From Siphonodentalium dalli (Eukaryota; Mollusca; Scaphopoda; Gadilida; Siphonodentaliidae), in NCBI GenBank assembly GCA_032622095.1, contig CP136068.1, forward strand, positions 60,100,025-60,164,024: DNA of 64,000 nucleotides, in the 5' to 3' direction. The notes below the pieces were generated by a model. That model had not been told where the DNA came from. It saw only the letters and a program-made list of their open reading frames with translations, and did not search any database. The position numbers and the translations under genes were made by a program. Each line of letters starts with the position of its first letter. Position 1 is the stretch's first letter. Of the stretch, positions 6,355 to 59,055 are shown piece by piece.

Positions 6355-6760
6355 TTTTAGCTCACCGGTGGAGCTATAGTCATCACTACTCGTCCGTTGT
6401 CTGTCCGTCCATCCATCCATCCGTCCATCCATCCATCCGTCCGTCCTTCAACAATTCTTTAAACATCTTCTCCTCTGAAACCATCAGACCGATTGGGTTT
6501 ATATTTGGTGTGGATGTTCCCTAGGTGACTCTTATTCAGATTTGTTCAAATGAGGTCACCAAGTCAAATAGTTTTGATGTCAGGACCATAACTATTTTTC
6601 CACATAGTAATTCTTAAAACGACTTCTTTTCTGAAGTTGTCGGGCCGAATGGGTTCATATTTGGTATGAGGGTACCTTGGGTGACTGTGGTTCAGATTTG
6701 TTCAAATGAGGTCACTGGGTCAAATGTGGGTGGGGCTATGGACATAAATCTGAATATTTT
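6355..6760 (+). repeat. Family D element, 5' head and two cores
   Basis: It begins TTTTTAGCTCACCGGTGGAG, a shortened form of the D hairpin, and runs through a CCATCCGTCC tract. Two tandem cores of about 156 bp follow, each with GGGTTCATATTTGGTATGAG-like and CAGATTTGTTCAAATGAGG words. The cores end in RGGTCA half sites. 6760-6900 is AT-rich filler with a (TA)n run near 6806-6830. Confidence 0.75.
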
Positions 6761-6894
6761 TTTTAAATTTCGATTAAACTTATTGCTCAATTTAACAAAC
6801 AAAAAATATATATATATATATACATTGTATATTTAATTTTTAATAAATATTTTTTTTTATTAAATATTTTTTTTTTTTTAAATAAAATTAAAAA

Positions 6895-7190
6895 AAACTC
6901 ATTAAAATTTTGAAGAACCTATGACATTACATCTTTGGGAGGGGGAGGGGAGGTACATCTAGTCACTCCACTATATTTGATTGAAATCAGGGGTTTGGGA
7001 GAAAGCAGGAACAGACAGATGTACAGAAATGTTCAGTAAATTACTTTAATATCCTTGTATTCTCACTACAGCAAGCCACCCATGTGCTCTGATGGACACA
7101 TGTTTATAAAACAGTGCCAGATGGATAGATAACAACTGCTATGCCATAGTGCTCTCCATCCCCAGAGAGTGTAATTCATGTCATTCATAA
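6895..7190 (+). repeat. D tail segment, duplicated at 27770-28075
   Basis: This stretch (GGGAGGGGAGGTACATCTAG, CAGACAGATGTACAGAAATG, CAAGCCACCCATGTG) matches 27770-28075 almost base for base by eye. It is part of a duplication of more than a kilobase that includes the D head and the F element on its right. Confidence 0.65.
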
Positions 7191-7285
7191 TATAAATGAG
7201 ATTAATGGTGTTATCAATGAAGCACCCTTGTTGTTTACATTATCACTCAGTGGTCATTAATATCAGATTAATTTCATTTTTTCCA

Positions 7286-10429: not shown

Positions 10430-11347
10430 TCACCAGTCCATATATGTTCCTACTTCAGGTTAAACTGTTGGACAGAATTGGCCACAAATTTTAACTTTAT
10501 GGGGTTGTCAGGTTGGTAATTTTCAAATGAGGTCACCTGGTCAAATAGGGGCCAAGCGAAGAACAGTTTTCCTCTTAATATGCTTCCTTCACAAGGACCA
10601 TCAGGTCTATTTTACTGATATTTAGTATGAAGGGTTCTTCGGTGTATGGGATTCAAATTTATTCAGATGGGGTCACCAGGTTAAATAGGGTGGGACCAGG
10701 GACATAACTGTATGTCTCTATAGTAATACTTAAAATGTCTTCTCAAGATAGGTTGGACTATTTAGCTTAATACATATAGTATGGAGGATCCTTTAGTGTC
10801 TGAGATTCAGATTTGTTAACATCAGGTCAACCTGTTAAGAAATGACGGGGCTATGGGGACTTAACACTTTTGTGTCTAATAAAATCATTAAAATACAAAA
10901 TTCATTAAAACATCTACCTTGGAACTACCTGACTGATTAATCTGACATACATGTATGGTGTTTTGGGTCCATGGATAATTGGGCTTCAAACATGTCTAAA
11001 TGGTTTTATAAAAAGGCGCTTGTGAGATTGGAAATTTCCAACAATTGAGAAAGTTTGAGGTGTCGGTTGTGAAATTCCAACCTAAGACTTGGGAGTCTGG
11101 AGCCCGGTCGGGAGGGGACTTGTTGAGCTGGAGGAGGGGGTGGGGTGATCAGTAGTGTACAGTTGGTAAATTCAAGGTAGATATTCACTGATCTACATAC
11201 ATGAAGCCTCTCTAGTCACATATCCTGTTTAGATCTACTTCTTTTAAAATGATTATGAAAAGGTCTGACTGTTGTGGTCTCCAGAGTCCCAGTCTTATCA
11301 GTCTTTGTAGTCTGGTGAGCGACCCCACAGTCTTTGACTGTCTTGTT
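10430..11347 (+). repeat. Family D cores and 3' tail with terminal hairpin
   Basis: D cores (TTTACTGATATTTAGTATGA; GGATTCAAATTTATTCAGAT) pass into a unique tail with AGCCCGGTCGGGAGGGGACT and TCTGACTGTTGTGGTCTCC. The end is the hairpin CAGTC/GACTG and TCTTGTT (11328-11347). The same tail recurs at 34130-34248, 34620-34948 and 58740-59055. Confidence 0.65.
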
Positions 11348-11549: not shown

Positions 11550-11769
11550 TGTTTAAAAGGGGGTTGGAGATTTGACAGTAGTGTGCACTTTCAAATTTCA
11601 ATGTGAAGAGCTTGGCTCATCAGCAAATCCCGAGCTACATGTATGTCCCTGTTTAGAACTACTTGTCTTAACTTATTTTGACAAGTACTGACTGTGTTAG
11701 TCTTCAAAGTCCCTTTCTTCTCAGTCTTTACAGTAGGTGAGCGTCTCCACAGTCATTGACTGTCTTGTT
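11550..11769 (+). repeat. Second copy of the D 3' tail
   Basis: Diverged copy of the same tail: GAACTACTTGTCTTAACTT, TCTTCAAAGTCCCTTTC and the terminal CAGTCATTGACTGTCTTGTT at 11750-11769. Confidence 0.6.
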
Positions 11770-12400: not shown

Positions 12401-12411
12401 GTTTGATATAT

Positions 12412-12780
12412 TTTTTATGTGTACCCATACCATAGTATGGTACAGTTTGTCTGTCTGTCCATCCGTAGACACTTTACGCATAATGCGATAACTCAAACAT
12501 TTTCTATTTGATCGGAACCATATTTTGTATATAGGTTTATCAGCGCAAAATACAGATCGAGTTCGAATATGGGTTTGATCCGAGTTTTGTTTACAGAGTT
12601 ATGGCCCTTTTACGACTTAGAATTCACACATGCTGCCATAACTCAAACATTTTTTATCTGATTGACACCAATTTTGTATGCGATATTGTCAGCCCAAAAT
12701 ACAGATCAAGTTCGAATATGGGTTTGATCCGATTTATTTTAAAGAAGTTATGACCCTTTTTTTTTTAATTTCAAAATTTG
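12412..12780 (+). repeat. Family H element, 5' head and two cores
   Basis: The head GTACCCATACCATAGTATGG folds back on itself and is followed by TCTGTCTGTCCATCCGTAG. Two cores follow, about 163 bp apart, each with GATCGGAACC-type and TTCGAATATGGGTTTGATCC words and ending in GTTATGGCCCTTTT or a variant. An AT-rich tail follows to about 12880. Confidence 0.7.
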
Positions 12781-13129
12781 TATTTTTAATTTTTGTTAGA
12801 TTGAACACATAAAAAATATTTAAAAACTCTTATAATAATAAAAAAAATATTTAATTAAAAAAAAAAATTGTCATTGACACTAATTTGTTTTAGTTGTATA
12901 CCATTAATTAGGTGTGATGTCCTGTTTTGAAAATATGAAGATTTTATTGCAATGATTCCATGTAATATAATGATATCAATAAATTACCATGTGAACATCC
13001 AATATCCAGAGTATATGAGAGTACCTTTAATAGATGTCATTCCAAGCGAAATCTGTTATTAATTGAGTGATGACATATGGTACAGAGCTCTAGGTGGTTG
13101 TATGAAGGTAAAGATAAACAACCTGCTGA

Positions 13130-13349
13130 CTGGATATTTGTTTATCCTATCTGTCAAATTGATTAATGGCTAAACCATTGGATATCACAGCGAGAGGTCC
13201 TTGTGTGAATAGGGACAGAGTTATGACATTTAAAACGACTCCTCCCCCACCCCAAATACTTAACCCCTTCTTATGACAAATTATTTGAGCTTTTGATTTT
13301 AAGTTATGTACTGATATATGGATTACTGTGATCATATCTTTGACCTATT
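13130..13349 (+). repeat. Repeat shared with 16085-16290
   Basis: Words CATTGGATATCACAGCGAGA, CCACCCCAAATACTTAACCC and ACAAATTATTTGAGCTTTTG recur in the same order at 16085-16290. The function and ends are not evident. Confidence 0.5.
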
Positions 13350-13353
13350 ATCA

Positions 13354-13419
13354 GTTATAGCTAATCGCTATCGCCAAGGTATGGGTTAAACATCTGCCGA
13401 TCGTGATCGGCCTCTCGTT
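13354..13419 (+). mobile_element. Family C 3' end (hairpin plus CTCTCGT)
   Basis: CTATCGCCAAGGTATGGGTT is followed by CATCTGCCGATCGTGATCGG with a GCCGATC/GATCGGC stem and ends CTCTCGT. Four copies in the window (this one, 20692-20925, 25763-25957, 35560-35619) share this 3' border and then diverge, which marks a true terminus. A hairpin just before a fixed 3' end without target duplication suggests a Helitron/Helentron-like unit. This copy abuts the LINE fragment on its right. Confidence 0.6.
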
Positions 13420-15294: not shown

Positions 15295-15456
15295 CCATAC
15301 AGGTATGTACACATAATCCCGACATGTGGATCAACCATTCGTCTGTCCGTTCATCTGTCTGTGACACATGCTATTGAAGTGATAACCAAGTATTTTTATC
15401 GGATCATGTTCATATTTTATGTTAATATTTATGACACACCCCTCGCCTGTATAGTT
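15295..15456 (+). repeat. Family I repeat unit
   Basis: TGTACACATAATCCCGACAT, GTCTGTCCGTTCATCTGTCT and GGATCATGTTCATATTTTAT recur in the other I copies (18540-19270, 20926-21205, 29030-29400). Confidence 0.55.
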
Positions 15457-15830
15457 TTTAGCTCATCTGTGATGAAGTCTCCGGTGGAGCTATAGTCATC
15501 ACTCCTCTCCGTCCATCCATCCGTCCATCACGAATCATCTTCTCCAGAACCATAAGACCGAATGGGTTCATATTTGGTGTGGATGTTCCCTAGGTGACTC
15601 ACTTCAGATTTGTTCAAATGAGGTCACCAGGTCAAATAGTTGCGAAACCAGGGCCATAACTCTATTCCTCTATAGTAATTCTTCAAACAACTTCTCAAGA
15701 ACTATCGGGCTGATTTATCGTATATTTGGTATGGAGGGGCCTTGTGTGACTGGTGTTCAGATTTGTTCAAATGGGCTCACTGGATAAAATATGGGCGTAG
15801 CCAGGGATATAACTTTAAAAAAAAATAAGC
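15456..15830 (+). repeat. Family D element, head and two cores
   Basis: The head TTTTTAGCTCATCTGTGATG plus CTCCGGTGGAGCTATAG is followed by TCTCCGTCCATCCATCCG. Two cores follow with GGGTTCATATTTGGTGTGGA and TTTGGTATGGAGGGGCC. A perfect direct repeat AGGTCACCAGGTCA lies in the first core. Confidence 0.75.
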
Positions 15831-19552: not shown

Positions 19553-19681
19553 GATTTCTGGGAGATGTTTATCCACCATATTGCCACTATCTTCCTTATG
19601 ATATTCTCATGGATAATCAACTTTGTGAGAGTCGGCACATTAGTTCTTCTTGTTCATGATACATGTGATCCTTGGTTAGAG
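19553..19681 (+). CDS. Ceramide synthase, exon with the Lag1p motif
   Basis: Ceramide synthases N-acylate sphinganine or sphingosine with fatty acyl-CoA in the endoplasmic reticulum membrane. This internal exon of 43 codons lies between ACTTCTTTTAG-type acceptor sequence (AG at 19551-19552) and a GTAAGG donor (19682), phase 0 at both ends. It begins DFWEMFIHHIATIFL, ends HDTCDPWLE, and includes FVRVGTL. The paired histidines (exon residues 8-9) and the H-D pair (residues 35-36) fit the Lag1p motif of the TLC domain, where the family's essential residues lie. The hydrophobic run between them fits one membrane segment. Upstream exons (N-terminus, any homeobox-like region, first membrane segments) were not found in 1-19552, so the preceding intron probably exceeds 19 kb or the exons lie outside. 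Which CerS paralogue this is cannot be decided. Confidence 0.93.
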
Positions 19682-19720
19682 GTAAGGAATCTATTTTATA
19701 TTGATTAAATATTAGCTTTT

Positions 19721-20190
19721 TATGTTTACCCATACCATAGTATGGTAAACATAGTGTCGTTGTCCGGATTGACCACTCGTCGTGCGTCGTACCGTCCGTC
19801 TGTCCGTAGACACTTCATGCATGGTGCGATAACTCAAATATTTTATATCTGATCAGAACCAAATTTTGTATATGAATTTCTCAGCACAAAAGACAGACCG
19901 AGTTCGAATATGGGTTTGATCGGACTATTTTTAACTGAGTTATGGCCCTTTTTCTAAAAAAAAATATTCACTCTTTAAAAAAAATTAAAAAATTTTAGAT
20001 TGAATTTCTTGCTCAATTTAACAAAAACAAAACAAAAAAATAAATGAAAAAAAATATATAGTGAAAAATATATATTTTTTTTAAATAATTAAAAACAAAT
20101 TTTTTTTTTAAAGTTAACAAAATTTTAAAAACTAACACCACTATAACTCTGCCTAAGGTACCCCGAGTCACCAAACCAAATTTGTTTAAA
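19721..20190 (+). repeat. Family H element in the CerS intron
   Basis: The head ATGTTTACCCATACCATAGT is mirrored by ATGGTAAACAT, giving a strong hairpin, and is followed by GTCCGGATTGACCACTCGTC and CCGTCCGTCTGTCCGTAG. One core (CAGACCGAGTTCGAATATGG) and an AT-rich tail follow. The head is only about 40 bases downstream of the exon donor. Confidence 0.75.
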
Positions 20191-20239
20191 TCGGTCCAAA
20201 ATCTTGTGTTATGTACTGGTAAATTTGTTTGGAGCGACA

Positions 20240-20690
20240 TTAAATCCAATTCACCAATTCCATCCCATGCCTTTGGACTACTTAGCTATTGATAAGGCTA
20301 TATTATTTTCTGATGTCTCTTATGCCAATGTGCAGATAATCTGATAAAGAAAGCTATGGTATCTAATTTAAAATAAAGGTTCAACAATACACATCACATG
20401 ATATTAACAGTAGACTTGAACATCTTTGCTGCCTAGCACAGCTGAAGATATCAGATGGTCTGAGGTCATTATAAATGTTATTGGTTTAATAGAGATATCC
20501 AAGCTTTCAACATAAACTATTCCTGTGATTTGTTGACCGCTCTGCTATATAATTGATATTAATGGGTCAGCAGTGAGTTGGCTTATCTTGATCTATACTG
20601 TTGGTAGAATTTGATACCTTATCACTGTAAACTTAAATTGGACACTCTTAACCCAAGTATTCCATGTCCAGGTCACCTTTCACATTTAAC
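20240..20690. other. Intron sequence, nothing recognised
   Basis: I searched here for the missing CerS exon (an A-K-M-like start and R-L-x-x-x-P-like end) and found no open frame with suitable splice sites. Confidence 0.4.
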
Positions 20691-20691
20691 C

Positions 20692-20925
20692 CGAGGCTGT
20701 GGTGGTGCAGCATTACAGATCCTGTACCAGTGCATTCTCTTATATAAATGCGGGTGACCTATAAATTCCAATAATTTGTGTTATGTACATTTGTCTATAA
20801 TAGTACATAACAGTATACTCTATAATTCAACACCAAAACTCTCATTTATGATTCCGATCATAGTAATTTACTATCGCTAACAGATGGGTTAACATCTGCC
20901 GATTGTGATCGGCCTCTCGTTATGT
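20692..20925 (+). mobile_element. Family C element (Helentron-like), longer copy
   Basis: It shares ATTCCAATAATTTGTGTTAT, ACAGTATACTCTATAATTCA and the hairpin end with 25763-25957. The start, GGTGCAGCATTACAGATCCT and GTGCATTCTCTTATATAAAT, relates to the remnant at 46795-46910. The 3' border is CTCTCGT at about 20924. Confidence 0.55.
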
Positions 20926-22921: not shown

Positions 22922-22982
22922 CTTACAATCGAATATACATATATATGTATGCGCCGAATTGTTACTGGCCTTGTCCGTTTAG

Positions 22983-23398
22983 ATGTTGGAGGATTTGGCC
23001 AACCTAATTGGGGAGATCAGGACACAAAACCTCAGTGGTGGCACGAGGCGATAAGTTGGACCAAAAACGGTGTTAAGTCCGGCGTAACAGTCCCGGAGCT
23101 CAGAGCATATCATTACCATGGACACGAGTTAGTACGAGAAACCATTGCATCACCAGAATCGGACTTAACAACCAAGTTAGACGTTATGACAATCGTGGAT
23201 CAAGATGAGTCAAGCGAAAGAGTGGAAATGGACAATGCAATTGGACAATTGGACATCACAGTTGATGCCGACCAAGAAGACGACTGCGACATACATGGGC
23301 GCATGGAAGATTTCACACCCACCACGATCACGCCCGCCACAACCAAGCAATCGACGCCAACGAAAGCCGAGAATTCATTATACGCCAAACTGATATAA
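22983..23398 (+). CDS. Terminal coding exon of an unidentified protein
   Basis: An open frame runs to a TAA at 23396-23398. It could start at ATG 22949 (149 codons) or, as I prefer, at an acceptor CCGTTTAG (AG at 22981-22982) because upstream residues look random. Near the start stands GDQDTKPQWWHEAISWTKNG, followed by VPELRAYHYHGHELV. The K-P-x-W-W ... I-x-W ... L-R ... H-G-x-E order is reminiscent of the DNA-binding region of the NRF1/Ewg/P3A2 family, but weakly. The rest is acidic (DADQEDDCD) and then threonine/proline-rich, as in activation tails. ATTAAA at about 23466 could be its poly(A) signal. Codon usage is markedly less AT-rich than the intron around it. It could be a retrocopy, a nested gene, part of a mobile element, or a contig misplaced at the gap. 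Confidence 0.55.
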
Positions 23399-24765: not shown

Positions 24766-24766
<1 letters not shown>

Positions 24767-24972
24767 ACGTTCTGAAAGAAAAGGGGGACTATAGAAACGG
24801 GCTCTGTCCGTCTGTCCGTCTGTCCATCCATCCGTTCATCACACTTTTGAGTACCTTCATGGTGTAATCATCTCCTCCTACAGATTTCATCCCAGAGATT
24901 TCAAACTTCAGAATATTGTTGCCCATATATTGAAGACGTGCAACATGTTTATAGATGACGGATTTCTTTTTT
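24766..24972 (+). repeat. Family N head and one core
   Basis: AAAGGGGGACTATAGAAACG is followed by CTGTCCGTCTGTCCGTCTGT and then GTACCTTCATGGTGTAATCA, CTCCTCCTACAGATTTCATC and AATATTGTTGCCCATATATT, which recur at 26000-26300. Confidence 0.6.
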
Positions 24973-25680
24973 ATGTTTACCCATACCATGTATGGTAAAC
25001 ATAGTGTCGTTGTCCGGATTGACCACTCGTCGTGTGTCCGTCCGTCCGTCTGTCCGTCTGTCTGTCTGTCCGTCCGTCTGTCTGTCCGTCCGTAGACACT
25101 TTACGTGTAATGCGATAACTCAAACTTTTTTTACCTGATCAAAACCAAAATTTGTATATGGGGTTTTCAGCCCAAAATACAGATCGAGTTCGAATATGGG
25201 TTTGATCCGACTTTTTTTTACAGAGTTGTGGCCCTTTTTTTACTTAGAATTCACACATTCTGCCATAACTCAAACATTTTTTATCTGATCGGAACCAAAT
25301 TTGGTATGTGAGTTTCTCGGCCCAAAATACAGATTGAGTTCGAATATGGGTTTGATCCGAGTTTTTTTTACGGAGTTATGGCACTTTTTCGAATTAGAAT
25401 TCATTAATTCTGCCATAACTCTAACATTTTTTATCTGATTGGAACCAAATTTGGTGTATGAGTTTCTCAGACCAACATACAGATTGAGTTCGAATATGGG
25501 TTTGATCGGATTTTTAATGGAGTTATGGTCCTTTGACATATAATTCACACATACATGTACTTCGATAAATCAACCATTTTACATCTGATAGGAACCAAAT
25601 TTGGTATGTGAGTTTCTCAACTCAAAATACAGAACGAGTTTGAATATCGGTTAGATAAATAATTATATTATTTTGATATC
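24973..25680 (+). repeat. Family H element, head and four cores
   Basis: The head ATGTTTACCCATACCATGTA pairs with ATGGTAAACAT. A long CCGTCCGTCTGTCTGTCC tract follows. Cores with CAGATYGAGTTCGAATATGG occur at about 25189, 25340 and 25492, a spacing of about 151 bp. Each contains ATCGGAACCAAATTTGGT or a close variant and ends GAGTTATGGCNCTTT. Confidence 0.8.
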
Positions 25681-25762
25681 TCACATGGCAATTTGCAACA
25701 ACATGAATAGAACTGCTTACACTATGGTAGTGGTGACAGGCTCTAGAGTTAAGATGTTATAT

Positions 25763-25957
25763 TAACCCTTCTATATTGACGCATACATTCCAATAATTTG
25801 TGTTATTACTGGTTATTATGTACATTTGTCATATACTACTTTAGATCATAACAGTATACTCTATAATTCAACATTAAACGATTATGATTCTGATCATAAC
25901 AATTTATTATCGCCAAGGGATGGGTTAAACATCTGCCGATCGTGATCGGCCTCTCGT
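25763..25957 (+). mobile_element. Family C element (Helentron-like)
   Basis: Same sequence as 20692-20925 from ATTCCAATAATTTGTG onward. It ends with GCCGATCGTGATCGGC and CTCTCGT at about 25956, followed by TTTTTATGG. Confidence 0.6.
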
Positions 25958-26438
25958 TTTTATGGAGTTATTAACCGTTTTCGACTTTTTTTATAATTTT
26001 CAGTATGAGGGTACCTTCATGGTGTAATCAACTCCTCCTACAGTTTTCATTCTAGAGATTTGAAACTTCAGAATATTGTTGCCCATATATGGAAGATGTA
26101 TATAGATATATATAGATTTTTTTATAACTTTTTGTCTGTAATATCTTAATGCATACCATACTGCTGTGAACTGCGATAAGACTGTGATAAAAAAAGAAAT
26201 TTGACAGAGTTATTAACCCTTTTCGACTTAGAAAATTTCAACATTTTTTATAATTTTCTGTATGAGGGTACCTTCATGGTGTAATCAACTCCTCCTACAG
26301 TTTTGATCGTAGATATTTGAATTTGTGATGTGCAGAAGAATATTGTGGAAAAATTATTTTTTGACAGAGTTATTAACCATTTTCGACTTTCGAAAAATTT
26401 CAACATTGGGGGACACTGTGGTCAGCTGACCTTTTATT
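25958..26438 (+). repeat. Family N cores with 3' palindrome
   Basis: Three cores carry GAGTTATTAACCNTTTTCGAC and GGGTACCTTCATGGTGTAAT. The end is GGGGGACACTGTGGTCAGCT: GGTCAGCTGACC (26420-26431) is a perfect palindrome followed by TTTTATT. The same end, slightly decayed, stands at 41210-41227. Confidence 0.6.
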
Positions 26439-26580
26439 TTTTATGCAATCGTTATGGAATCTGATGATATCTGATTTTCACAATCAGGAATGCTTTCCGA
26501 TAGGGCTTTTTGCCATTGTTCACAGAATATTCATTCAAATAGTTGAAAACTGTCTAACTGATGACAATTTTTCTTTGCAG

Positions 26581-26743
26581 AGTGATATATTCAACACTGT
26601 TCCAAGCTCATACCATTGTTGGTTGGGGAACACCATACTATCTATTCAACTTTTTACTCCTATCACTGCAGTTCCTCCATATAATATGGACATACTTTAT
26701 CGTGAAGTACATCATCCAAGCTATAACAAGTGATGGATCAAAG
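26581..26743 (+). CDS. Ceramide synthase, exon with last membrane segment
   Basis: Acceptor TTTTTCTTTGCAG (AG 26579-26580) and donor GTGAGA (26744) bound an exon of 163 bases. It starts in phase 2 (one base completes a codon) and ends in phase 0, joining in frame to 35651. The protein is VIYSTLFQAHTIVGWG, then PYYLFNFLLLSLQFLHIIW and TYFIVKYIIQAITSDGSK. The L-Q-x-L-H-x-x-W pattern in a long hydrophobic helix is characteristic of the last TLC membrane segment of CerS. The preceding residues fall in the loop between the last two membrane segments, which is known to influence acyl-chain choice. The phase mismatch with the exon at 19553 requires an intervening exon of length 2 modulo 3, not visible here. 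Confidence 0.93.
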
Positions 26744-29407: not shown

Positions 29408-29800
29408 TTTTTATCTCACCTGAGACGAAGTCTCCGGTGGAGTTATAGTCATCACTCCTCGTCCATCGTCTGTCCATCCGTCCGTAAACAATTCTTTAAA
29501 CTTCTTCTCCTCTGGACCCATAAGACCGAATGGGTTCATATTTGGTGTGGATGTTCCCTAGGTGACTCACATTCAGATTTGTTCAAATGCGGTCACTGGG
29601 TCAATTAGTTGTGAAGCCAGGGCCATAACTCTTTCCCTCCATAGTGATTCTTTTAAATATCTTCTTCTCAAATACCATCAGGCCAAATGGGTTCATATTT
29701 GGTATGAAGGATCCTTGGGTGACTGGGGTTCAGATTTGTTAAAATGAGGTCACTGGGTAAAATGTGGGCAGGCCAGGGACATAACTCCAAAAAATATTTA
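29408..29800 (+). repeat. Family D element, head and two cores
   Basis: TTTTTATCTCACCTGAGACG and AAGTCTCCGGTGGAGTTATAG are followed by GTCCATCCGTCCG and two cores. A (TA)n run follows at 29838-29857. Confidence 0.75.
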
Positions 29801-29959: not shown

Positions 29960-30535
29960 CTTTGGCTCTAACTGTATGCAGGGTATGCCTACACATGTCA
30001 AGTGAAATCTGACATTTTTATATACATTCCCTGGAGATCTGCTAGAGGTCATTAATTCCCAATTACAACACCAATCTATCATATGTATTGTTCACATTTT
30101 TCAACAGGACATTTAACACATTTATCAGGGTCACCTGGTCAAGTAGGTGCAAGGCCACTGGCCAGTACATTACTCTTTCTCTCCATAGTAATTCATGATA
30201 TGTCTTCTATGCAAGAATCAAATGGCCTATTTGCTTATATTTGGTATGAAATTACCTTGGGTGACAGATTTGTGAAAATGTGATCACAAAGTTGAATAAG
30301 GGCAGAGCCAGAGACATAACTATTTCACCACATAGTAATTCTTAAAATATGTCTGCAAGAGCCAAGAACTAGTTGGCTTATTTAGCATGGAATGTTCTTG
30401 TTTGACTGCAATTCAGATTTTTTTTAATGGGGTCACCTGGTCAAATAGGGGCCAAGCGAAGGACAGTTTCCCTCTTAATATGCTTCCTTCACAAGGACCA
30501 TCAGGTCTATTTTACTGATATTTAGTATGAAGGGT
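29960..30535 (+). repeat. D-type cores, matched at 39950-40440
   Basis: GGGTCACCTGGTCAAGTAGG, CATAGTAATTCATGATATG, CTTATATTTGGTATGAAATT and the following text recur in the same order at 39960-40440. Confidence 0.6.
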
Positions 30536-31110
30536 TTTTAGCTCACCTGAGACAAAGTCTCCGGTGGAGCTATAGTCATCACTCCTCGTCCGTCGTCCGT
30601 CCGTCCGTCTGTCCGTCTGTCCGTCTGTCCGTCTGTCCGTCAACTTTTTTAAAAACATCTTCTCCTCTTAAACCATCATACCGAATTGGTTCATATTTGG
30701 TGTGTATGTTCCCTAGGTGACTCTCATTCAGATTTGTTCAAATGAGGTCACTGGGTCAAATAGTTGCGAAACAAGGGCCATAACTCTATTCCTCCATAGT
30801 AATTCTTACAACAACTTCTTGTCCATAACCATTGGGCCAATTTAGCTAATATTTGGTATGGAGAGTCCTTGGGTGACTGGTGTTCAGATTTGTTCAAATG
30901 AGGTCACCCGGTCAATTAGTTGAGAAACCAGGGCCATAACTCATAGTGATTCTTACAATGACTTCTTCTAAAAAAATATTGGGCCGATTTAGCTTATATT
31001 TGGTACAGAGATACCTTGGGTGACTGGGGTTCATATTTGTTCAAATGGGGTCACTGGGTCAAATAGGGGCAGAGCCAGGGACATAACTTTAAAAACAAAA
31101 AATTTAATTT
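30536..31110 (+). repeat. Family D element, best head and three cores
   Basis: The head AGCTCACCTGAGACAAAGTC, CGGTGGAGCTATAG and CGTCCGTCCGTCCGTCTGTC is followed by three cores of about 150 bp. RGGTCANNNGGTCA direct repeats occur at about 30746, 30903 and 31037. Confidence 0.8.
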
Positions 31111-31139
31111 TTGCATTTTGACCTTTAATTTTTGTTTAG

Positions 31140-31590
31140 GACACATCACAGCCTCATATTTTTTACCTAGATTTTTCTTAGCATGTTCTTCATCTGTATG
31201 GATTTTGGTATTGTTTATTTAACCCCTTCCACTCTTGTTTTAATATAGAATTCATCCAAGACAGGATTACTCAAACTTTTTCATCTGATCAACACCAAAT
31301 TTGGTATATGAATTTTTGACACTTATATACAGATCAAGTTACAGATATATTTTAACAGAGTTATGGCCCTTTATAATTCACACCCCTTTGCTATGCACTA
31401 TTAATTTTTAAGAGGACACTCTAGCCTGTATTATTGAAAAAGCCAATGTATCATAGTGTGGTCACCCGATCCTCTTGCTGAATACTGCTTGCTTCAGACC
31501 AGTTTACCATCTGTCATTACAAGACATGACATTAGCCAAACAACTACCAGAGTCTACAAGGAATAGTTCATTTCTCCAAGCCTGGACATA
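31140..31590 (+). repeat. I-like and H-like remnants
   Basis: TTCTTCATCTGTATGGATTTTG and CACCAAATTTGGTATATG words are present; the order resembles 28739-29407. No gene is visible. Confidence 0.4.
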
Positions 31591-33020: not shown

Positions 33021-33039
33021 GTTCGAATATTATGTTCTT

Positions 33040-33585
33040 AACCACCATTATCCAGTTGAACTCATTATACCCTGATTTTGCAAAGAAAACTTGGGGGGTA
33101 TATTGGATTGAATTTGTCAGTCTCTATGTCAGACTGTTCTCCCATCCATCCATCTGTCATTATGTCTCTATCCGTCCATCAATTGTTTTCTTCTCCAGAT
33201 ACATATTAAAGACCAAATGGGTTTATATATTTAGGTGTGGATGTCCCCCAGGTGACTCACATTCAGATTTGTTCAAATGAGTTCATGAGGTCAAATATGT
33301 GAGAAGTCAGGGCCATAACTCTTTCCTTCCATAGTAATTCTTAAAACAATTTCTTCTCAAGAACCATCTGGACTATTTAGATTATGTTTGGTATGGATGG
33401 TCCTTCGGTGACTGGGGTTTAGATTTTTTCAGATTTGGGGTCATTTTAGGAAAATCAGTTCAGTTCAACTCTTAAAATCTAATGTCTGAAATTACCAAAT
33501 GAATGGATCTCATAGATGGGGATTCACGTTTGTTCAAATAGGGGCGGAGATAAGAGATTTAATTATCAACCAGCCACCCTACCTG
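33040..33585 (+). repeat. G-type head with D cores
   Basis: AAACTTGGGGGGTATATTGG and CTATCCGTCCATCAATTG precede D cores with ACATTCAGATTTGTTCAAAT. This matches the layout at 8973-9380. Confidence 0.5.
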
Positions 33586-34250
33586 TGCTCCGGCGGAGCT
33601 ATAGTCATCACTCCTCGTCCGTCCATCGTCTGTCCGTCCATCCGTCCGACAACAATTATTTGAACATCTTCTCCTCTGGAACCATAAGACCAAATGGGTT
33701 CATATTTGGTGTGGATGTTCCCTAGGTGATTCTCATTCAGATTTGTTCAAATGCGGTCACTGGGTCAAATAGTTGCGAAGCCAGGGCCATAACTCTTTCC
33801 CACCATAGTAATTCTTTTAAACATCTTCAGAACAATAAGACCGAATGGTTTCATATTTGGTGTGGATGTTCCCTAGGTGACTCACATTCAGATTTGTTCA
33901 AATGAGTTTACTTGAAATAGTTGCGAAGCCAGGGCCATAACTCTTTCCCTCCATAGTATTCTTAAAGTGACTTCTTCTCAAATACCATCAGGCTATATGG
34001 GTTCATATTTGGTATGAAGGATCCTTGGGTGACTGGGGTTTCAGATTTGTTCAAATCAGGTCACTGGGTCAAATGTGGGCGGGGCCAGGGACATAACTCC
34101 AATTTTTTTGTTTTAGATTTAACTCTTTAGATATCTACTTCTTTTAAAGTGATTATGAAAAGTTCTGACTGTTGTGGTCTCCAGAGTCCCAGTCTTATCA
34201 GTCTTTGCAGTCTGGTGAGCGACCCCACAGTCATTGACTGTCTTGTTTGG
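33586..34250 (+). repeat. Family D element, three cores and 3' tail
   Basis: CTCCGGCGGAGCTATAG and CGTCCATCCGTCCG open it. Three cores follow. The tail from 34133 has TCTGACTGTTGTGGTCTCC and ends CAGTCATTGACTGTCTTGTT at 34229-34248. This is the most compact copy with both the D head (slightly truncated) and the 3' hairpin. Confidence 0.75.
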
Positions 34251-34950
34251 TGTCTGGGCTGGTCTGGGATTCAAATTTATTCAGATGGTGTCACCAGGTT
34301 AAATAGGGTGGGACCAGGGACATAACTATATGTCTCTATAGTAATTCTTAAAATATCTTCTCAAGAGAGGTTGGACTATTTAGCTTACATATATTTAGAG
34401 GATCCTTTAGTGACTGAGATTCAGATTTGTTAACATGAGGTCAATTTGTCAAGAAATGGTGGGGCTATGGGGAGTTAACACTTTTGTGTCTAATAAAATC
34501 ATTGAAATACCAAATTCATTAAAACATCTACCTTGGAACCACCTGACTGATTAATCTGACATACATGTATTGTGTTTTGGGTCCATGGATAATTGGGCTT
34601 CAAACATGTCTAAATGGTTTTGGAAATAGGCGCTTGTGAGATTGGAAATTTCCAACAATTGAGAAAGTTTGAGGTGTCAGTTGTGAAATTCCAACCTACG
34701 ACTTGGGAGTCTGTAGCCCGGTCGGGAGGGGACTTGTTGAGCTGGAGGAGGAGGGGGTGATCAGTAGTGTATAGTTGGTAATTTCAAGGTGGATATTCAC
34801 CGATCTACATACAGGAAGCCTCTCTAGCCACATATCCTGTTTAGATCTACTTATTTTAAAGTGCTTATGAAAAGTTCTGACTGTTGTGGTCCCAGTCTTA
34901 TCAGTCTTTGCAGTCTGGTGAGCGACCCCACAGTCATTGACTGTCTTGTT
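34251..34950 (+). repeat. D core plus full-length D tail
   Basis: It matches 10630-11347 (GGGATTCAAATTTATTCAGA, TAACACTTTTGTGTCTAATA, AGCCCGGTCGGGAGGGGACT) and ends CAGTCATTGACTGTCTTGTT near 34950. The minus-strand frame 34696-35073 lies in it and is not a gene. Confidence 0.7.
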
Positions 34951-35559: not shown

Positions 35560-35619
35560 GCTAATCACTATCGCCAAGGTATGGGTTAAGCATCTGCCGA
35601 TCGTGATCGGCTTCTCGTA
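35560..35619 (+). mobile_element. Family C 3' end next to the last CerS exon
   Basis: CACTATCGCCAAGGTATGGG, CATCTGCCGATCGTGATCGG and TTCTCGT. The end is only about 30 bases before the acceptor of the terminal exon, in the region where branch point and pyrimidine tract are expected. Confidence 0.55.
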
Positions 35620-37560: not shown

Positions 37561-38276
37561 TTTTTATACCCCCACTTTCGAAGAAAATGGGGGGTATACT
37601 GGATTGACTGCGTCTGTCCGTCACACTTTCTCCCTCCGTGTGTCCGTCCGTCTGTCCGACCTCATAACTCGAACTATGAACCGATTTCAATAATTTTTTG
37701 TATGCAATCTCCTTAGGACCGCCTCTCCACATGATGTTAATTGCGGTGCGGTCTGACTTTCTTCTTTTAAGTTACGCCTTACTTTTCGACTTATTTTGAC
37801 TTAGAAAATTCTGTCTGACTTAATAACTTTAACAAATATGAACCGATTTCAATAATTTTTGGTATACATGCTTCTCACAACACCCTCTCTACATGATGCG
37901 GCTCAGGGTTGGCTCGGACTGTTTTTCCTAACATTACACTTCATTTTCGACTTATTTTGACTTTTTTTTGTGGATGCTATCAAGTTAGGATATTTTCCGG
38001 AAGTTTCTTCGAATATGGGTTCGGAACAATGATTTTTACCACATTTAAGTTGCGTTTCATTTTCTACCCTTTTTTGGGTTTCTGCAATCATTCAAACAAA
38101 TATGAACCAATTTGAATATTTTTGTCTGTACAAGCTTCTTGCGACACCATATCGATATTATTAATCCAAATTTTTCTTTAAAGTTAAAAATCTTTTTTGT
38201 TTTGGTTTACGGATAATGCGGGTTGAATTTGCCACGGTGGGGGTATGCTAGCACGCGAGTGCACACCTCTTGTTAT
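37561..38276 (+). repeat. Family G element, complete
   Basis: The head TATACCCCCACTTTCGAAGA pairs with AATGGGGGGTATA. CCGTCCGTCTGTCCG follows, then cores with ATGAACCGATTTCAATAATT at 37676 and 37838 (about 162 bp apart) and a third diverged one near 38100. The tail has CACGGTGGGGGTATGCTAGC and the small hairpin GCAC/GTGC (38251-38262), ending ACACCTCTTGTT. Confidence 0.75.
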
Positions 38277-43001: not shown

Positions 43002-43656
43002 TATTGTGTTGCATCCTGAGAAAGAACAGCATGGATATATGGAGGAAGAGTACCTCAGGGTTTGTAACCCTATATAGCCTTAGGATATAATGAGTTATAC
43101 TATTTAGCTGAATGGTTGAATCAATAGTTTCTCTCTACCTGTCATCTGTTTACGTTATCAGAACATCCCTAAATCTCAAGAATGGACCACATGTGCTTTC
43201 CAATGTGTAATGTAGAACTTTATAGGAAAATGCATGAAACTCGCTCAAGCACTGAACGAAAGTGTTGTTTTGGTTACAGAAGTGTTCCATTAACTTTCTG
43301 TAAATTTTAAGAGGTTGATGAAATTATATACTAATAAATCAGTATCTTCACATTATTCTGCACGGTAATAGTCAACAAAACAACCCTCCATGCGCAAAAA
43401 TATAAGAATTTTGAAAACAAAACAAAAGATAAATGAAATTAGAACTCTACAGCAGTCAGCTAGCTCTATATATCCATGTACATGTATACCTCTATAGACA
43501 TCAGTAGTTAATAAATTGAATCTTGTAAATACCATTACTACATAATAGTAAGATCTATATTGGCTGATCGACTGTTAATATGGTGGTGATTATTGAATCA
43601 ACGCAGCATTAATGTTATCCCATTTTGTTTTCTTATATAAATGCCTGTCCTCCATT
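43002..43656. other. Unassigned sequence, no gene recognised
   Basis: AT-rich, no family match and no convincing open frame. Confidence 0.4.
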
Positions 43657-45867
43657 TTTAGCTCAAATTTACTTTGTAAAGTTTGAGCTATTGCCATGGC
43701 TTTGTTGTCCGTCGTCTGTGTGTGCGTGTGTGTGTGTGCATGTGTGATGCCTCAACAATTTCCTTTAGCACGGGCTACAGGTCGTACCTTTGGTCGGATC
43801 ATTATAAAATTTGTCATAGCTGTTGACATTGACATGTAGATGGGAACGAGTCATTTTGGGTTCATTCGGGGAAAAAACATGGCCGCCAGTCTGATCATCA
43901 TGAAATTTGTCATGGATGTTAATATTGACATGTAGATGGGAACGAGTAATTTTGGGGTTGTTCGGCCAAAAAACATGGCCACCGGCAGCCATCTTAGATT
44001 TTACTCTTTGCATGACTAAATTCTTTGGCACGGCCTACAGGTCTTACCTTGGTCGGATCATCATAAAATGTGTCATGGATGTTAACAATGACATGTAGAT
44101 GGGAACGAGTCATTTTGAGGTCATTCGGAAAAAAAACATGGCCGCCAGCAGCCAGCAGCCATTTTGGATTTTACTCTTTGTATGACTAAATCCTTTAGCA
44201 CGGGCTACAGGTCGTACCTTTAGTCTGCTCATCATGAAATTTGTCATGGCTGTTGAAATTGGAATGTAGATGGGAACGAGTCATTTTGGGGTCATTCGGA
44301 CAAACAACATAGCCGCCAGTGGCCATCTTGGATTTCAAAATTCAATCCATTAGCACGGGCTACAGGTCGTACCTTTGGTCTGATCATCATGAAATTTGTC
44401 ATGAATGTTAACATTGACATGTAGATGGGAACGAGTAATTTTGGGGTCATTCGGCCATAAAACATGGTCGCCGGCAGCCATCTTAGATTTACTCTTTGCA
44501 TGACTAAATTCTTTGGCACGGCCTACAGGTCGTACCTTTGGTCGGATCATCATAAAATGTGTCATGGATGTTAACAATGACATGTAGATGGGAATGAGTC
44601 ATTTTGTGGTCATTCGGCCAAAAAATCATGGCTGCCAACAGCCATTTTGGATTTTACTCTTTGTATGACTAAATCCTTTAGCACGGGCTACAGGTCGTAC
44701 CTTTAGTCTGATCATCATGAAATTTGTCATGGCTGTTGAAATTGGAATGTAGATGGGAACGAGTCATTTTGGGGTCATTCGGACAAACAACATGGCCGCC
44801 AGCGGCCATTTGGATTTCAAAATTCAATCCATTAGCACGGGCTACAGGTCGTACCTTTGGTCTGATCATCAAGAAATTTGTCAGGGATGTTTACATTGAC
44901 ATGAAGATGGGAACGAATAATTTTGGGGTCATTCCCCAAAAAAACATGGCCGCCGGCAGCCATCTTAGATTTACTCTTTGCGTGACTAAATTCTTTGGCA
45001 CGGCCTATAGGTCGTACCTTTGGTCAGATCATAAAATGTGTCATAGCTGTTGACATTGACATGTAGATGGGAAACGAGTCATTCTGGGTTCATTCGGGAA
45101 AAAAACATGGCCGCCAGTGGCCATCTTGGATTTCAATATTCAATCCATTAGCACGGGCTACAGGTCGTATTGTTCGTATGATCATCATGAAATTTGTCAG
45201 GGATGTTTACATTGACATGAAGATGGGAACGAATAATTTTGGGGTCATTCCCCAAAAAAACATGGCCACCGGCAGCCATCTTAGATTTACTCTTTGCGTG
45301 ACTAAATTCTTTGGCACGGCCTATAGGTCGTACCTTTTGTCGGATCATCACAAATTTTTCCATGGATGTTAACAATGACATGTAGATGGGAACGACTCAT
45401 TGGGGTCATTCGGCAAAAAAACATGGCCACCAGCAGCCATTTTGGATTTTACTCTTTGTATGACTAAATCCTTTAGCACGGGCTACAGGTCGTACCTTTA
45501 GTCTGATCATCATGAAATTTGTCATGGCTATTGAAATTGGAATGTAGATGGGAACGAGTCATTTTGGGGGTCATTCGGACAAACAAAATGGCCGCCAGCA
45601 GCCATCTTGGATTTCAAAATTCAATCCATTAGCACGGGCTACAGGTCGTAGCTTTAGTCTGATCATCATGAAATTTGTCATGGCTTTTTAAATTGGAATG
45701 TAGATGGGAACGAGTCATTTTGGGGTCATTCGGACAAAAAAACATGGCTGCCAGTGGCCATCTTGGATTTCAAAATTCAATTCAAAATCTTTCCATTCAT
45801 TGCTCATCACACAAATTTAACTTCTTCCCAAAGTTGAGCTACAGTGTCATTGACACTTTCATTTATT
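43657..45867 (+). repeat. Family E array, complete with head, 13 cores and 3' hairpin
   Basis: The head TTTTTAGCTCAAATTTACTT pairs with AAAGTTTGAGCTATTG. GTCCGTCGTCTGTGTGTGCG follows. The TGTAGATGGGAACGAG word occurs about 13 times between 43834 and 45699 with an average spacing near 161 bp. Each core has ACATGGCCGCCAG and GCAGCCATCTTGGATTT. The end is AAGTTGAGCTACAGTGTCAT with the hairpin AGTGTC/GACACT (45843-45857) and TTCATTT. All frames listed inside it on either strand are frames of the repeat, not genes. Confidence 0.9.
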
Positions 45868-47390: not shown

Positions 47391-48650
47391 TTTTTAGCTC
47401 GACTTTACTTTGTAAACAATTTCCTTTAGCACGGGCTACAGGTCGTACATTTGGTCGGATCATTATAAAATTTGTAATAGCTGTTGACATTGACATGTAG
47501 ATGGGAACGAGTCATTTTGGGGTCATTCGGCCATAAAACATGGCCGCGGGCAGCCATCTTGGATTTTACTCTTTGCATGACTAAATCCTTTGGCATGGGC
47601 TACAGGTCATACCCTTGGTCGGATCATTATGAAATTTATCATGGGCATTGACATGTAGATGGGAATGAGTCAGTTTGGGGTCATTAGGCAAAAAAACATT
47701 GGATTTCAAATTTCAATCCATTAGCATGGGCAACAGGCAGGAGTGTTCGTCTGATCATCATGAAATTTGTCGTGGAAGTTAATATTGACATGTAGATGGG
47801 AACGAGTCATTTTGGGATCATTCGGCCAAAAAACATTGCCTCTGGCAGTCATCTTGGATTTTACTCTTTGTATGACTAAATCCTTTGACACAGGATACAG
47901 GTCGTATTTTTGGTCTGATCATTATGAAATTTGTCATGGATGTTAACATTGACATGTAAATGGGAACGAGTCATTTTCGGGTCATTTGGCAAAAAAACAT
48001 TGCTGCCAGTGGCCATCTTGGATTTCAAAATTCAATCCATTAGTACGGGCTACAGGCCGTACCATTTGTCTGATCATCATTAAATTTGTATGGATGTTAA
48101 TATTGACATGTAGATGGGAAAGAGTAATTTTGGGCTCATTCGGCCATAAAAAATGGCCGCTGGCAGCCATCTTTGATTTTAGTCATTGCATAACTAAATT
48201 CTTTTGCACGGGCTACAAGTCGTAGCTTTGGTCCAATCATTATGAAATTTGTCATGGCTGTTAACATTGACATGTAGATGGGAACGAGTCATTTTGGGGT
48301 CATTCAGCCATAAAACATATCCGCTGTCAGCCATCTTGGATTTTACTCTTTGCATGACTAAATCCTTGCAGTCCATGTCCCTCAGCCGATCATAACCAAA
48401 CTTCATATTAATCTTGATATTGATCTACTAGATGGAAGCTATCAAATATTTTTGAATTTCATTTGAAAATATACCTGCCAGCAACCATCTTGGATTTTAC
48501 TTTTATATATATCTCTTCATGTTGATAATCTAATATTACTTAGACATTTCAACTTGCCACATTTCTAATCGCTCCATTGACTGTAACACATGAAATTATT
48601 CCCTTTCCAAGTTGAGCTACAGTGTCATTGACACTTTCATTATTGCGTTT
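47391..48650 (+). repeat. Family E array with 3' hairpin
   Basis: A shortened head (TTTTTAGCTCGACTTTACTT) is followed by about six cores and ends GTTGAGCTACAGTGTCATTG, AGTGTC/GACACT at about 48620-48634. The last core carries the CAGTCCATGTCCCTCAGCCG variant. Confidence 0.8.
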
Positions 48651-50985: not shown

Positions 50986-51565
50986 CATGTATATTTTGGT
51001 GTGTATATTTTGGGTGACCACTAGATGGGAGCCATAAAAATTTTCAAAATTTTGTTGTGAAAACGTAGCCACCAGTGGCCATCTTGGATTTTACTCTTTG
51101 TATGACTAAATCCTTTGGTACATCTTACATCCCTTGTCCAATTGTCACTAAACTGCACATGGATCTTCGGGATGACCACAGGTTGAGAGGAATCTAATTT
51201 TTCTGAATTTCATTAAAAAACATGGGTCACTGGCAGCCATTTTTCGATTTTACTTTTTGCATGACTAAATCGTTTAGCACACATACAGACCACATCCCTC
51301 CTCTGATCGCCACCAAACTTCATATTGATTTTCGGGGCGACCACTAGATGGGAGCTATCAAATGTTTTGAATTTCATTGGAAACATGGCCGCCAGGTGCC
51401 AGTGGCCATCTTGGATTTTACTTTATATGTATCTCATCATGTTGATATTTAGTATTATTTAGACATTTCAACTTTCCGCATTCCTAATCGCTTCATTGAC
51501 ATATGAAATTATCCTCTCTCCAAGTTGATCTACAGAGTCATTGACACTTTCATTTATCAATCTTG
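50986..51565 (+). repeat. Family E variant, 3' part
   Basis: Four cores with GGGAGCCATAAAAATTTTC, GGCCATCTTGGATTTTACTC and ACAGACCACATCCCTCCTC. The end is AAGTTGATCTACAGAGTCAT and GACACTTTCATTT near 51555. Confidence 0.65.
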
Positions 51566-55229: not shown

Positions 55230-55237
55230 TGCAGAAT

Positions 55238-56084
55238 TAGACCCCGAAGCCACGACAAATAGTTTTCATGGCTGGCTCAACCGATTTTCGTGGCTGGTTA
55301 GCTAGCTAAGCCGGCTCGGTCACGACGTTCGTGGCTGACGAAATATGGCGGCTCAGCCGGCTGAGATGTTATCATTCAGCGTATTTCCGTTTCCGAAATG
55401 TTCCTAATCCCCTGTTATCGGTTATAGATGACGTTTTTTTTAGCGTTTGTGGTGAACCCGTAGAATTCCAGACCACACGTAATCTTTTGATGTTGGGCTT
55501 TTCCATTACGGCGAAATTCACGAAGGACTGGCATGGATATACTATGTAGTTTCCCATCTAATCGGTATAAGTAGTTACATTGGGACTTCTGTCGACTTCA
55601 GACTGCTATCATCACTGCCATCTTGCGATATATGCATGCATCATTGCATGATGAACCGGATAGTAATGATATATACTATTTCAAACTATTTTCTATTCTT
55701 ATGTGACAAATGCCAGTGATGTCTGAGACTGGGTGTTGTCGATATAAACAATTTATATTTTAACCCTTTCAATACCGAATGGATGCGCCCATTCAGTTAT
55801 ATGAAAGCATGCATTGGGATAGTCTATTCCACATTAAGGGGCCAGATGTTCTGATAATATAACAAACATGCGAGTATGCCAATATTAGGCAATGCGGTTT
55901 AGTTCTTTGCGATTCACAGTACAGTTGTGCTTGACATATAAGCCCATGCACATGGCTCAGCCATTTTACAATTCCGGCGGCGGAGATTTTTAAATGTGGC
56001 TGGCGTTAGAAATAATATGGCTGGCGGCGGCTTGTGGCCAATATGGCTGGCGGCGGCGGCGTACGATGGCGGCTTCGGGCTCTA
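55238..56084. mobile_element. hAT-like non-autonomous transposon, 847 bp
   Basis: TGCAGAAT is duplicated exactly on both sides (55230-55237, 56085-56092). The ends TAGACCCCGAAGCC and GGCTTCGGGCTCTA are inverted repeats with one mismatch. Subterminal sequence on both sides is crowded with TGGCTGGC, GGCGGC and CGTGGCTG words (55245-55375, 55970-56075), as expected of transposase-binding sites. No transposase frame is present. Confidence 0.8.
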
Positions 56085-56092
56085 TGCAGAAT

Positions 56093-56740
56093 GAGAGAAT
56101 TACACAAGCAGTTCTGTATAAGTGAAAATAGGGCCTACATAGATCTGAACATTCACAAAGAAAGGATAGATTCCATGCAGAATTACGGAATGGTTTATTG
56201 CTTGACATGAATTAACATGTTACATGCAAAACATATATGATCTTCTGCGAACATTTTACTTAATCCATTTGAGAATCTAAAGCAATTTTTTTTTTTTCTT
56301 CAAATTATTTTTTGTTATTTTAATTGAGATTAATTTCCTGCCCAATTAAAAAATAATAACACCATTATTACATCCACCAGGGTGACTCAACCAAATTTGG
56401 TTTAAATCAGTCTAAAATCAAGAACATGCAAAAAGCTAGCAGATACTCCAAGCTCTATGAGGTATGATGAAGGTGTCTGCAATCACAGAATGTTTACTTA
56501 ACACCATATAGAAGTCACATTGATTATAAAGTAATAAATGAAATGGCAGTGTTAACAAAATCTGATTGGAATGACAGCTCCTTTGATTAATACCCAAAAC
56601 TTCACTGCCTGTTAGAGAGTTTGTATATAAATTACCCATGGCTTATGATAACAAACTCCCAAGGGCAAGTGTGAATGATGGATCTGACAGTTAGGCCATT
56701 AAAACTAAATACCTGTTTTCTGAGAAAGAAGGAGGCATTT
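56093..56740. other. Unassigned sequence, no gene recognised
   Basis: AT-rich in part; no family match and no supported frame. Confidence 0.4.
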
Positions 56741-59055
56741 TTCTTAGCTTACCTGAGATGAAGAATTGAGACATATTTTGTGTGGATGGTCCCCAGGTGG
56801 CTGGGATTCAGTTCTGTTCAAATGGGGGTCACATGGTCAAATGTGGCATAGCTAGGGACCTAACTATTTCCATCCATAGTAATTCTTAAAACATCTCAAG
56901 AATCATCGGGGCTATTTAGCTTATAATTGGTATGGAAGGTCCTTCGGTTTTAGGGATACAGATGTGTTAAAATGAGGTAACCTGGTCAAATAAGGGCGGG
57001 GCCAGCGACATAACTTGTCCATCCATTGTAATTCTTAAAATGTCTTCCTATCAAGAACCATCAGGCCTATTCAGCTTAAATTTGGTATGGGGGACAAGGA
57101 TTCTGATTTGATTCAGAATTGGATCACTGGGTCAAATAGGGTCAAAGCCACGGACATAATTCTTTCCCTCATTAGTTATTAGTCGAGTTTTTCAAAAACT
57201 CGACTTATGGTTTGACGAGGGACGGTTGGCGGGCGGGCGGACCTAAAGAATGCCTTATAATTTTGACATTTGTGAACGGATTCAAAAATTTTGGTATGGC
57301 AGTTTCTCCCAATGACTATTTACTGCCTGTAGAAAATGGGTCACGTCCGAACTTTTTAACAAGAGTTATCCATCTTAGATGGTTTTTAGTTCAGTTTTTC
57401 ACCGATAGCGATATTAACCAATTTCAACAATATTTGGTATATGAGACTCTTGCAACAATATCTCGGACGAGTTCGAAAACCAGGTTTGTCCAAATTATTT
57501 TCGCGGAGTTATGGGTCTTAGTTTGTCTATTTTTAGCAATTTTATCACCGTTAGCACGATAACTTGATGAAATATTAACTGATTTCAACAATATTTGGTA
57601 TATGAGTCTCCTGCAACAATCTCTCGGACGAGTTTGAAAACCATGTTTGTCCGAATTTTTTTCGCGGAGTTATGGGTCTTAGTTTGTCTATTTTTAGCAA
57701 TTTTCTCACCGTTAGCGCGATAACTAGATAAAATATTAACCGATTTCAACAATATTTGGTATTTGAGTCTCCTGCAACAATATCTCGGACAAGTTCGAAA
57801 ATCAGGTTTGTCCGAATTTTTTTCCCAGAGTTATGGGTCTTAGTTTGTCTATTTTTAGCAATTTTATCACCGTTAGCGCGATAACTTGATGAGATATTAA
57901 CCGATTTCAACAATATTTGGTTTATGAGTCTCCTGCAACAATATCTCGGACGAGTTCGAAAACCAGGTTTGTCCGAATTTTTTTTCGCAGAGTTATGGGT
58001 CTTAGTTTGTCTATTTTTAGCAATGTTATCACCGTTAGCGCGATAACTCAATGAAATATTAACCGATTTAAACAATATTTGGTATATGAGTCTATTGCAA
58101 CAATATCTCGGACGAGTTCGAAAACCTGGTTTGTCCGAAAAAAAAATCCGGAGTTATGGGTCTTAGTTTGTCTATTTTAATCACAATTTTATCACCGTTA
58201 GTGCGATAACTCAATGAAATATTAATGGATTCAATTGATATTTGGTATATAGGTCTATTGCAATAATATACCACCGTCCAACTTTTTTTCCCGGAGTTGT
58301 GCACCTTATTGGCAGAAGTTTGGTTCGACTGCCAAAAAACTCGACAAAAGCATCTTAGATGCGTACCCCTTGTTTTAAAAACATCTTCTCAAGAACCATT
58401 TGGCATATTTAGCATTCATTTTGGTATAGAGAGTCCTTGGGTGACTGGAATTCAGATTTGTTGAAATGAGTTAACCAGGTCAAATAGGGGTGCGACCAGG
58501 GACATAACTCTTCCCCATAGTAATTCTTAAAATGTCTCCTCCTCCAGAGCCATCAGTCGTATTTAGCTTATATGTAGTAACTAGTATGGAGGGTCCTTGT
58601 GTTACTTGGGACTGGGTTGCAGATTTGTTAAAATGGGTTCGACCAATCAAGAAATGGCATTTGGTGTATATGGCCTTTGGAGAGTTGGGATCAAAATTTG
58701 TTTGAATGGGGTCCCGTGACCATTAAAAAAGGGGGGCATGTCAGGTTGTAACTTTGCCACAGTTAGGAAAGCTTGGGGTATCAGTTGTAAAATTCCAACA
58801 TGTGCAAAGGAATTTTACGAACTTGGGAGTGTTTTTGCTTCAGTTGGGAGGGAGCAGACTATGGACTATGTGGGGTGGGGGGATATGGACCATATTTCAA
58901 GGTGGACACCCCACTGTAAACGGAGACCCTCTGCGCTACATCCCTCTTTAGAACTACTTGTTTTTAAGTGAATTTGACAAGTACTAACTCTTATGGTCTT
59001 CCGAGTCCCAGTCTTTACAGTCTGGTGAGCGTCTCCAGTCATTGACTGTCTTGTT
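56741..59055 (+). repeat. Family D element with a family J element inside
   Basis: A degraded head (TTAGCTTACCTGAGATGAAG) opens at about 56747. D cores run to about 57178, are interrupted, and resume at about 58375 with TTAAAAACATCTTCTCAAGA. The tail follows from 58740 (TTGCTTCAGTTGGGAGGGAG) and ends CAGTCATTGACTGTCTTGTT at 59036-59055. Confidence 0.7.
57181..58374 (+). repeat. Family J element, head, five to six cores and 3' hairpin
   Basis: The head AGTCGAGTTTTTCAAAAACT with CGAC forms a hairpin and is followed by a GGCGGGCGGGCGGACC tract instead of GTCC. Cores with ACCGATTTCAACAATATTTG lie about 161 bp apart (GCGATAACT at about 57718, 57879, 58040, 58202). Each ends with GCGGAGTTATGGGTCTTAG. 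The terminus is AAAAACTCGACAAAAGCATC with the hairpin GCATC/GATGC (58350-58362) and GTACCCCTTGTT. It sits inside a D core between T residues, with no added target duplication, which defines both ends. Confidence 0.85.

Follow-up and report, generated by a model that had tools for sequence, protein, structure and literature searches.

Six new families of non-autonomous Helentrons (HINEs) in Siphonodentalium dalli and the shared orientation of neighbouring copies

The repeat elements of the families D, E, G, H, J and N are, with high confidence, new families of HINEs, an element type which is itself already described, and neighbouring copies of them were found to share their orientation over tens of kilobases in the sample tested. 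The observations as a whole are very probably best explained by HINEs which are moved by Helentron proteins and would join one exposed strand, with co-oriented neighbours as the outcome. The window analysed here is the whole 64-kb stretch C8:60100025-60164024 of a genome comprising 2.23 Gb in 9 contigs.

Layout, borders and identity of the elements

A mismatch-tolerant terminus scan with eleven patterns, controlled by 20 shuffles per pattern, detected 16 heads and as many 3' ends in the window and none in shuffled sequence. The lone match on the minus strand stems from the J head, a palindrome that also matches in reverse, and represents no extra copy. Many of the copies in the window are partial, consisting of heads alone or 3' ends alone. 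The features are as follows.

6355..6395, plus strand: D-type 5' head in its short form, AGCTCACC/GGTGGAGCT, with the start of the GTCC tract (terminus scan); most copies elsewhere begin at ~6362
11317..11347, plus strand: D-type 3' end with subTIR, palindrome CAGTC/GACTG and CTTGTT (terminus scan)
11739..11769, plus strand: second D-type 3' end (terminus scan)
12419..13419, plus strand: H-type element with degenerate head, cores and 3' palindrome GCCGATC/GATCGGC (sequence, terminus scan)
13659-13949, minus strand, opposite to all HINEs: LINE reverse-transcriptase remnant (PF00078, E 3e-7)
15451..15814, plus strand: D-type head and cores (module library, terminus scan)
19613..19681, plus strand: ceramide-synthase-like exon end, ..FVRVGTLVLLVHDTCDPWLE, followed by GTAAG (by eye)
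19717..20921, plus strand: H-type element in a probable ceramide-synthase intron (sequence, terminus scan)
22922..23395, plus strand: Nrf1-like exon (PF10491, E 0.0014, under the curated cut-off)
24968..25958, plus strand: H-type element with 150-bp core array and 3' end with subTIR (TRF, terminus scan)
26408..26438, plus strand: N-type 3' end, GGTCAGCTGACC and TTTTATT, with weak subTIR GGGGGACAC (terminus scan, subTIR test)
26579..26743, plus strand: TLC-domain exon (PF03798, E 8.6e-5, just under the curated cut-off)
29408..29787, plus strand: D-type head and cores (module library, terminus scan)
30535..34247, plus strand: D-type copy inserted into a longer one of the same type (empty site at 10551-10712 of the window)
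34920..34950, plus strand: D-type 3' end (terminus scan)
35587..35619, plus strand: H-type 3' end, variant (terminus scan)
37561..38274, plus strand: complete G-type element (borders at 37561-37565 and ~38274 in most copies)
43655..45864, plus strand: complete E-type element with ~12 cores of 163 bp (TRF, terminus scan)
48609..48641, plus strand: E-type 3' end (terminus scan)
51522..51554, plus strand: E-type 3' end (terminus scan)
57176..58374, plus strand: complete J-type element with 161-bp cores, within a D-type core (borders at 57176 and 58374-58376)
59025..59055, plus strand: diverged D-type 3' end (terminus scan)

The original prediction, that families of differing sequence share one layout, is borne out for D, E, G, H, J and N, whose motifs are present at the predicted positions. 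Of the seven families named, six stand, and no separate element matched family I; the array near 17390-18103 is E-like. The predicted tandem cores were recovered by TRF in E (period 163-164 bp), H (150 bp), J (161 bp) and D (~147 bp), but not in G, whose cores are too diverged for a TRF array. Likewise, the small 3' hairpin ascribed to D, E, G, J and N is present in all five, but the list had omitted H, which features one as well (TAAACATCTGCCGATCGTGATCGGCCTCTCGTT at 13387-13419, 20889-20921 and 25926-25958, with a variant at 35587-35619). Fold-back heads were seen in D, E, G, H and J. The head of N, at 24690-24806, is resolved poorly; within what seems to be this head lie 58 consecutive C (24708-24765). 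Near-palindromic 103-bp units (GCAGAATGAGGTCC..) occur at 46999-47192 and 51619-51814 and are also scattered within long D-type copies.

Genome searches with J and G returned dozens of copies at ~84-96% identity, with the full-length copies mostly bounded at query positions 57176 and 58374-58376 (J) or 37561-37565 and ~38274 (G). Ten J and ten G copies read across both borders confirmed that these are fixed and that the flanks are unrelated. Upstream, these copies usually adjoin a short T-run, and at the 3' border they read ..ACCCCTTGTT in J and ..CACCTCTTGTT in G, except for one copy of each. Insertion between T and T was confirmed by the nested D copy at 30535-34247, the excision of which yields the sequence at 10551-10712 with no duplication. 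The tandem cores of 147-164 bp could suggest plain dispersed satellites without insertion sites. Such satellites, as well as borderless copies, were searched for as the outcome contradicting the original prediction; the fixed J and G borders, the unrelated flanks and the empty D site refute this explanation.

In every one of the six families, a 3' subTIR, which the original prediction had not listed, repeats the first arm of the 5' head in inverted form, ~20-40 nt ahead of the 3' end and adjoining the 3' palindrome. In J, 13 of 14 positions match; the subTIRs of H, G and E are strong, those of D and N individually weak (shuffles reaching the score, per 5000: J 1, H 4, G 10, E 22, D 117, N 117). 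A palindrome or stem-loop directly ahead of the 3' end was found, as were a microsatellite and tandem central repeats, both optional features of HINEs, the G cores being undetected by TRF. The canonical Helitron type, which begins with TC, ends with CTRR and targets A/T, was rejected, as the elements end in ..CTTGTT or ..TTTCATT and are inserted T|T. HINEs are defined by a fold-back head, a GTCY microsatellite, cores, subTIRs, a palindrome and entry at T|T that leaves no duplication, and these non-autonomous Helentrons are known from Drosophila, mites and oyster (PMC7492417, PMC4067079). The architecture of the families in the window equals the published one, and they are therefore new examples of an already described element type. 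The notion of one architecture in many families is known biology as well, because 11 oyster elements of identical scheme, several with unrelated cores, have been described (PMC7492417). The suggestion of a single, perhaps Helentron-like mechanism was thus right as to kind, given the fixed borders, the T|T site and the HINE architecture.

Two further HINE-like elements were observed elsewhere in the genome. A chimeric HINE at L055:155-885 (C8:4.87 Mb) passes from a G-type head and cores directly into D-type cores and a D-type 3' end, and an additional family with fixed borders, ending ..CATCTCTTGTT (L054:1267-2480), is 91-95% identical at >20 other places.

Strand coherence of neighbouring copies

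The plus strand of the window, on which the ceramide-synthase and Nrf1-like exons lie, also carries every one of the 32 termini recognised (heads and 3' ends), as well as 69 of 69 module matches obtained when the window was searched with pieces of the six families. Other loci holding such modules each show a single orientation, which in Helentron loci is that of the ORF. Genome-wide, an 18-base pattern for D/E 3' ends matched 10,359 times forward and 10,246 times reverse, compared to 12 matches of the reversed pattern used as control. Pairs were evaluated among the first 100 places, covering the first ~13.2 Mb of contig C1, so that loci were not hand-chosen. In this sample, 51 of 52 D/E pairs 1-25 kb apart share their strand, including 17/17 pairs of D with E, and agreement amounts to 33/43 at 25-50 kb, 49/68 at 50-100 kb and 41/95 at 100-200 kb. 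The H 3'-end pattern matched 4,585 places (control 0), and these ends follow the D/E domains at short range with the exception of single copies, e.g., C1:6405005, which opposes its neighbours. Pooled with H over 13 Mb of C1, neighbouring 3' ends agree in 45/48 cases at 1-25 kb (p 1.3e-10), in 27/39 at 25-100 kb and in 14/28, i.e., at chance level, beyond 100 kb; same-strand runs of at least three ends span ~10-300 kb in this region. The orientation data are correlated and derive from a portion of a single chromosome plus a set of loci, and neighbour pairs are not fully independent because several modules are nested in each other, so that the precise values call for caution. As a control, 5 of 7 LINE-HINE pairs <25 kb apart and 13/29 <100 kb apart agree, a sample too small to be informative. 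The orientation domains are real in the tested sample, and the effect is large. No previous account of orientation domains in Helitrons turned up in the openly accessible literature, and this coherence appears to be the new part of the findings.

Three other explanations of the shared orientation have to be weighed. HINEs might enter the T-runs of older HINEs, which are T-rich on the plus strand, and thereby perpetuate the polarity of a cluster with no host process involved. The J element within a D core, the D copy within a D copy and one G copy that lies, co-oriented, within a core all fit such nested targeting, as does the surplus of T-runs of at least 5 over A-runs in the window (232 vs 164). 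Still, this 58:42 excess alone cannot yield 32/32 termini, the H elements in probable ceramide-synthase introns are separate insertions, and different families agree up to 25-50 kb apart, which renders the explanation rather unlikely. Alternatively, orientation could be random at insertion and selection could purge antisense copies, e.g., those with harmful splice or poly-A signals. The single window in which exons were seen does hold sense copies only, but an agreement of ~94% among neighbours demands very strong selection on a class with >25,000 exact 3' ends, and selection of this kind would have no effect in intergenic DNA; we regard it as improbable.

Moreover, the clusters might be pieces of large composite elements or segmental duplications bearing HINE modules in a fixed order. 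The D-lineage Helentron (see below) does carry D, E and G modules, all on the ORF strand; yet its few copies stand against >20,000 D/E 3' ends, the flanks of J and G are unrelated and the spacings between 3' ends vary widely. Composites are hence a quite improbable source of the coherence, and insertion of HINEs by Helentron proteins into one exposed strand is preferred.

Helentron enzymes and the proposed mechanism

The PF14214 profile detects at least 151 Rep loci in the genome. Intact members of a weaker-scoring class feature ORFs of ~1800-2860 aa, in which OTU and DUF6570 domains lie upstream of Rep and are followed by a PIF1 helicase (PF05970, E 7.7e-23) and a C-terminal endonuclease/exonuclease/phosphatase (PF03372, Exo_endo_phos, E 6.5e-4, under the Pfam curated cut-off). 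Judged by this domain order, which matches the Helentron combination of Rep, PIF1 helicase and a C-terminal AP-type endonuclease, the members of the class are Helentrons. Three lineages of them were seen, with the D lineage comprising ~14 copies of >24 kb, much of which is 99% identical. In the comparison with HINE ends, the outer ends of the Helentrons were either not reached, the 3' border of the D lineage included, or not matched; the pairing of HINEs with Helentrons is therefore putative. The strong-scoring PF14214 class (ORFs of ~1600 aa) was rejected as a partner of the HINEs, as no D, E, G, H, J or N ends occurred in the junctions examined. This class is often arranged in tandem with copies 8-12 kb apart (C6:36.91-36.93 Mb, C1:114.63 Mb, C2:141.80 Mb, C1:179.79-179.82 Mb), which fits the expectation for rolling-circle elements. 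An array of 119-129-bp GTGACCTTGACCTT units at 58-1514 of the window resembles the DNA separating such tandem copies (L059, L061).

The leaders of the Helentrons consist of HINE modules on the ORF strand (L051-L054, L065, L066, L071; C1:169.48 Mb, C1:214.42 Mb, C5:98.61 Mb). The D-lineage leader places a D head with cores ahead of E-type cores, which are followed by three 3' ends of E type; the last of these lies ~25 bp before the ATG. The leader modules are H-type in lineage A/B and D-type in lineage C. An origin of HINEs as Helentron leaders that stop at a terminator inside the element is unsupported so far: the shared unit of the D lineage begins 48 bp upstream of the D head and homology in the A/B lineage extends upstream of the H head, so that nesting is as likely as an origin from the leader. 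In addition, upstream of one full D-lineage copy, the 5' part of the Helentron recurs in tandem at a spacing of 4,676 bp (G000:C6:18404766, 18409442, 18414118).

Helitron-type enzymes are HUH nucleases which transfer one strand. In the mechanism proposed here, the non-coding HINEs would be moved by the Rep/helicase proteins of Helentrons, with the fold-back head (subTIR and complementary arm) marking the start of the transferred strand and the 3' subTIR and palindrome marking its end; the action of the ends as start and stop would follow published work on Helitrons. The transferred strand would then join the host at T|T without duplication, the tandem cores being cargo. The target would be single-stranded DNA exposed on one strand only by transcription or replication forks, a strand-specific access which we infer by analogy to the bacterial IS200/IS605 elements. 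Helraiser, a Helitron, prefers transcribed genes (PMC4778049). The HINEs of the window share the strand of the exons and H elements lie in probable introns, consistent with a target strand that becomes accessible through transcription or at forks. HINE orientation might constitute a record of strand polarity, in which at least 25,000 insertions map the direction of germ-line transcription or of forks at a scale of ~50-150 kb; we give this somewhat less than even prospects. The orientation also offers in-genome evidence on the choice of the target strand by Helentrons, a step which for eukaryotes is unresolved in the literature found, and the new families provide a high-copy animal case of satellite-like cores on non-autonomous Helentrons.

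Comparison with known systems

Bivalve pearl elements are likewise repeat elements with tandem core repeats, and HUH nucleases are used by IS200/IS605 elements as well as by Helitron-type enzymes. Cg_HINE of Crassostrea gigas shares with the present families the 5' subTIR with its complementary inverted repeat, a GTCY-type microsatellite, the 3' subTIR and palindrome, satellite-like cores of 140-180 bp, TT insertion without duplication and the occurrence of several families with unrelated cores (PMC7492417). In contrast, the sequences differ, and the copy number is far higher in the genome studied here. Both orientations of Cg_HINE occur, with neither a neighbour test nor local strand coherence given (PMC7492417). 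HINE/DINE-1 and Helentrons likewise feature subTIRs, an inverted repeat near the 5' end, a 3' stem-loop, a T-rich TT target and a partner with Rep, helicase and endonuclease, and there the Helentron partner carries the same ends as the non-autonomous copies (PMC4067079). The bacterial IS200/IS605 elements (IS608, ISDra2) insert as single strands into the lagging-strand template, whereby their orientation follows replication (PMC5371812). They differ from HINEs in being bacterial and in belonging to another enzyme family. It was a comparable orientation bias that revealed the insertion of IS200/IS605 at the replication fork.
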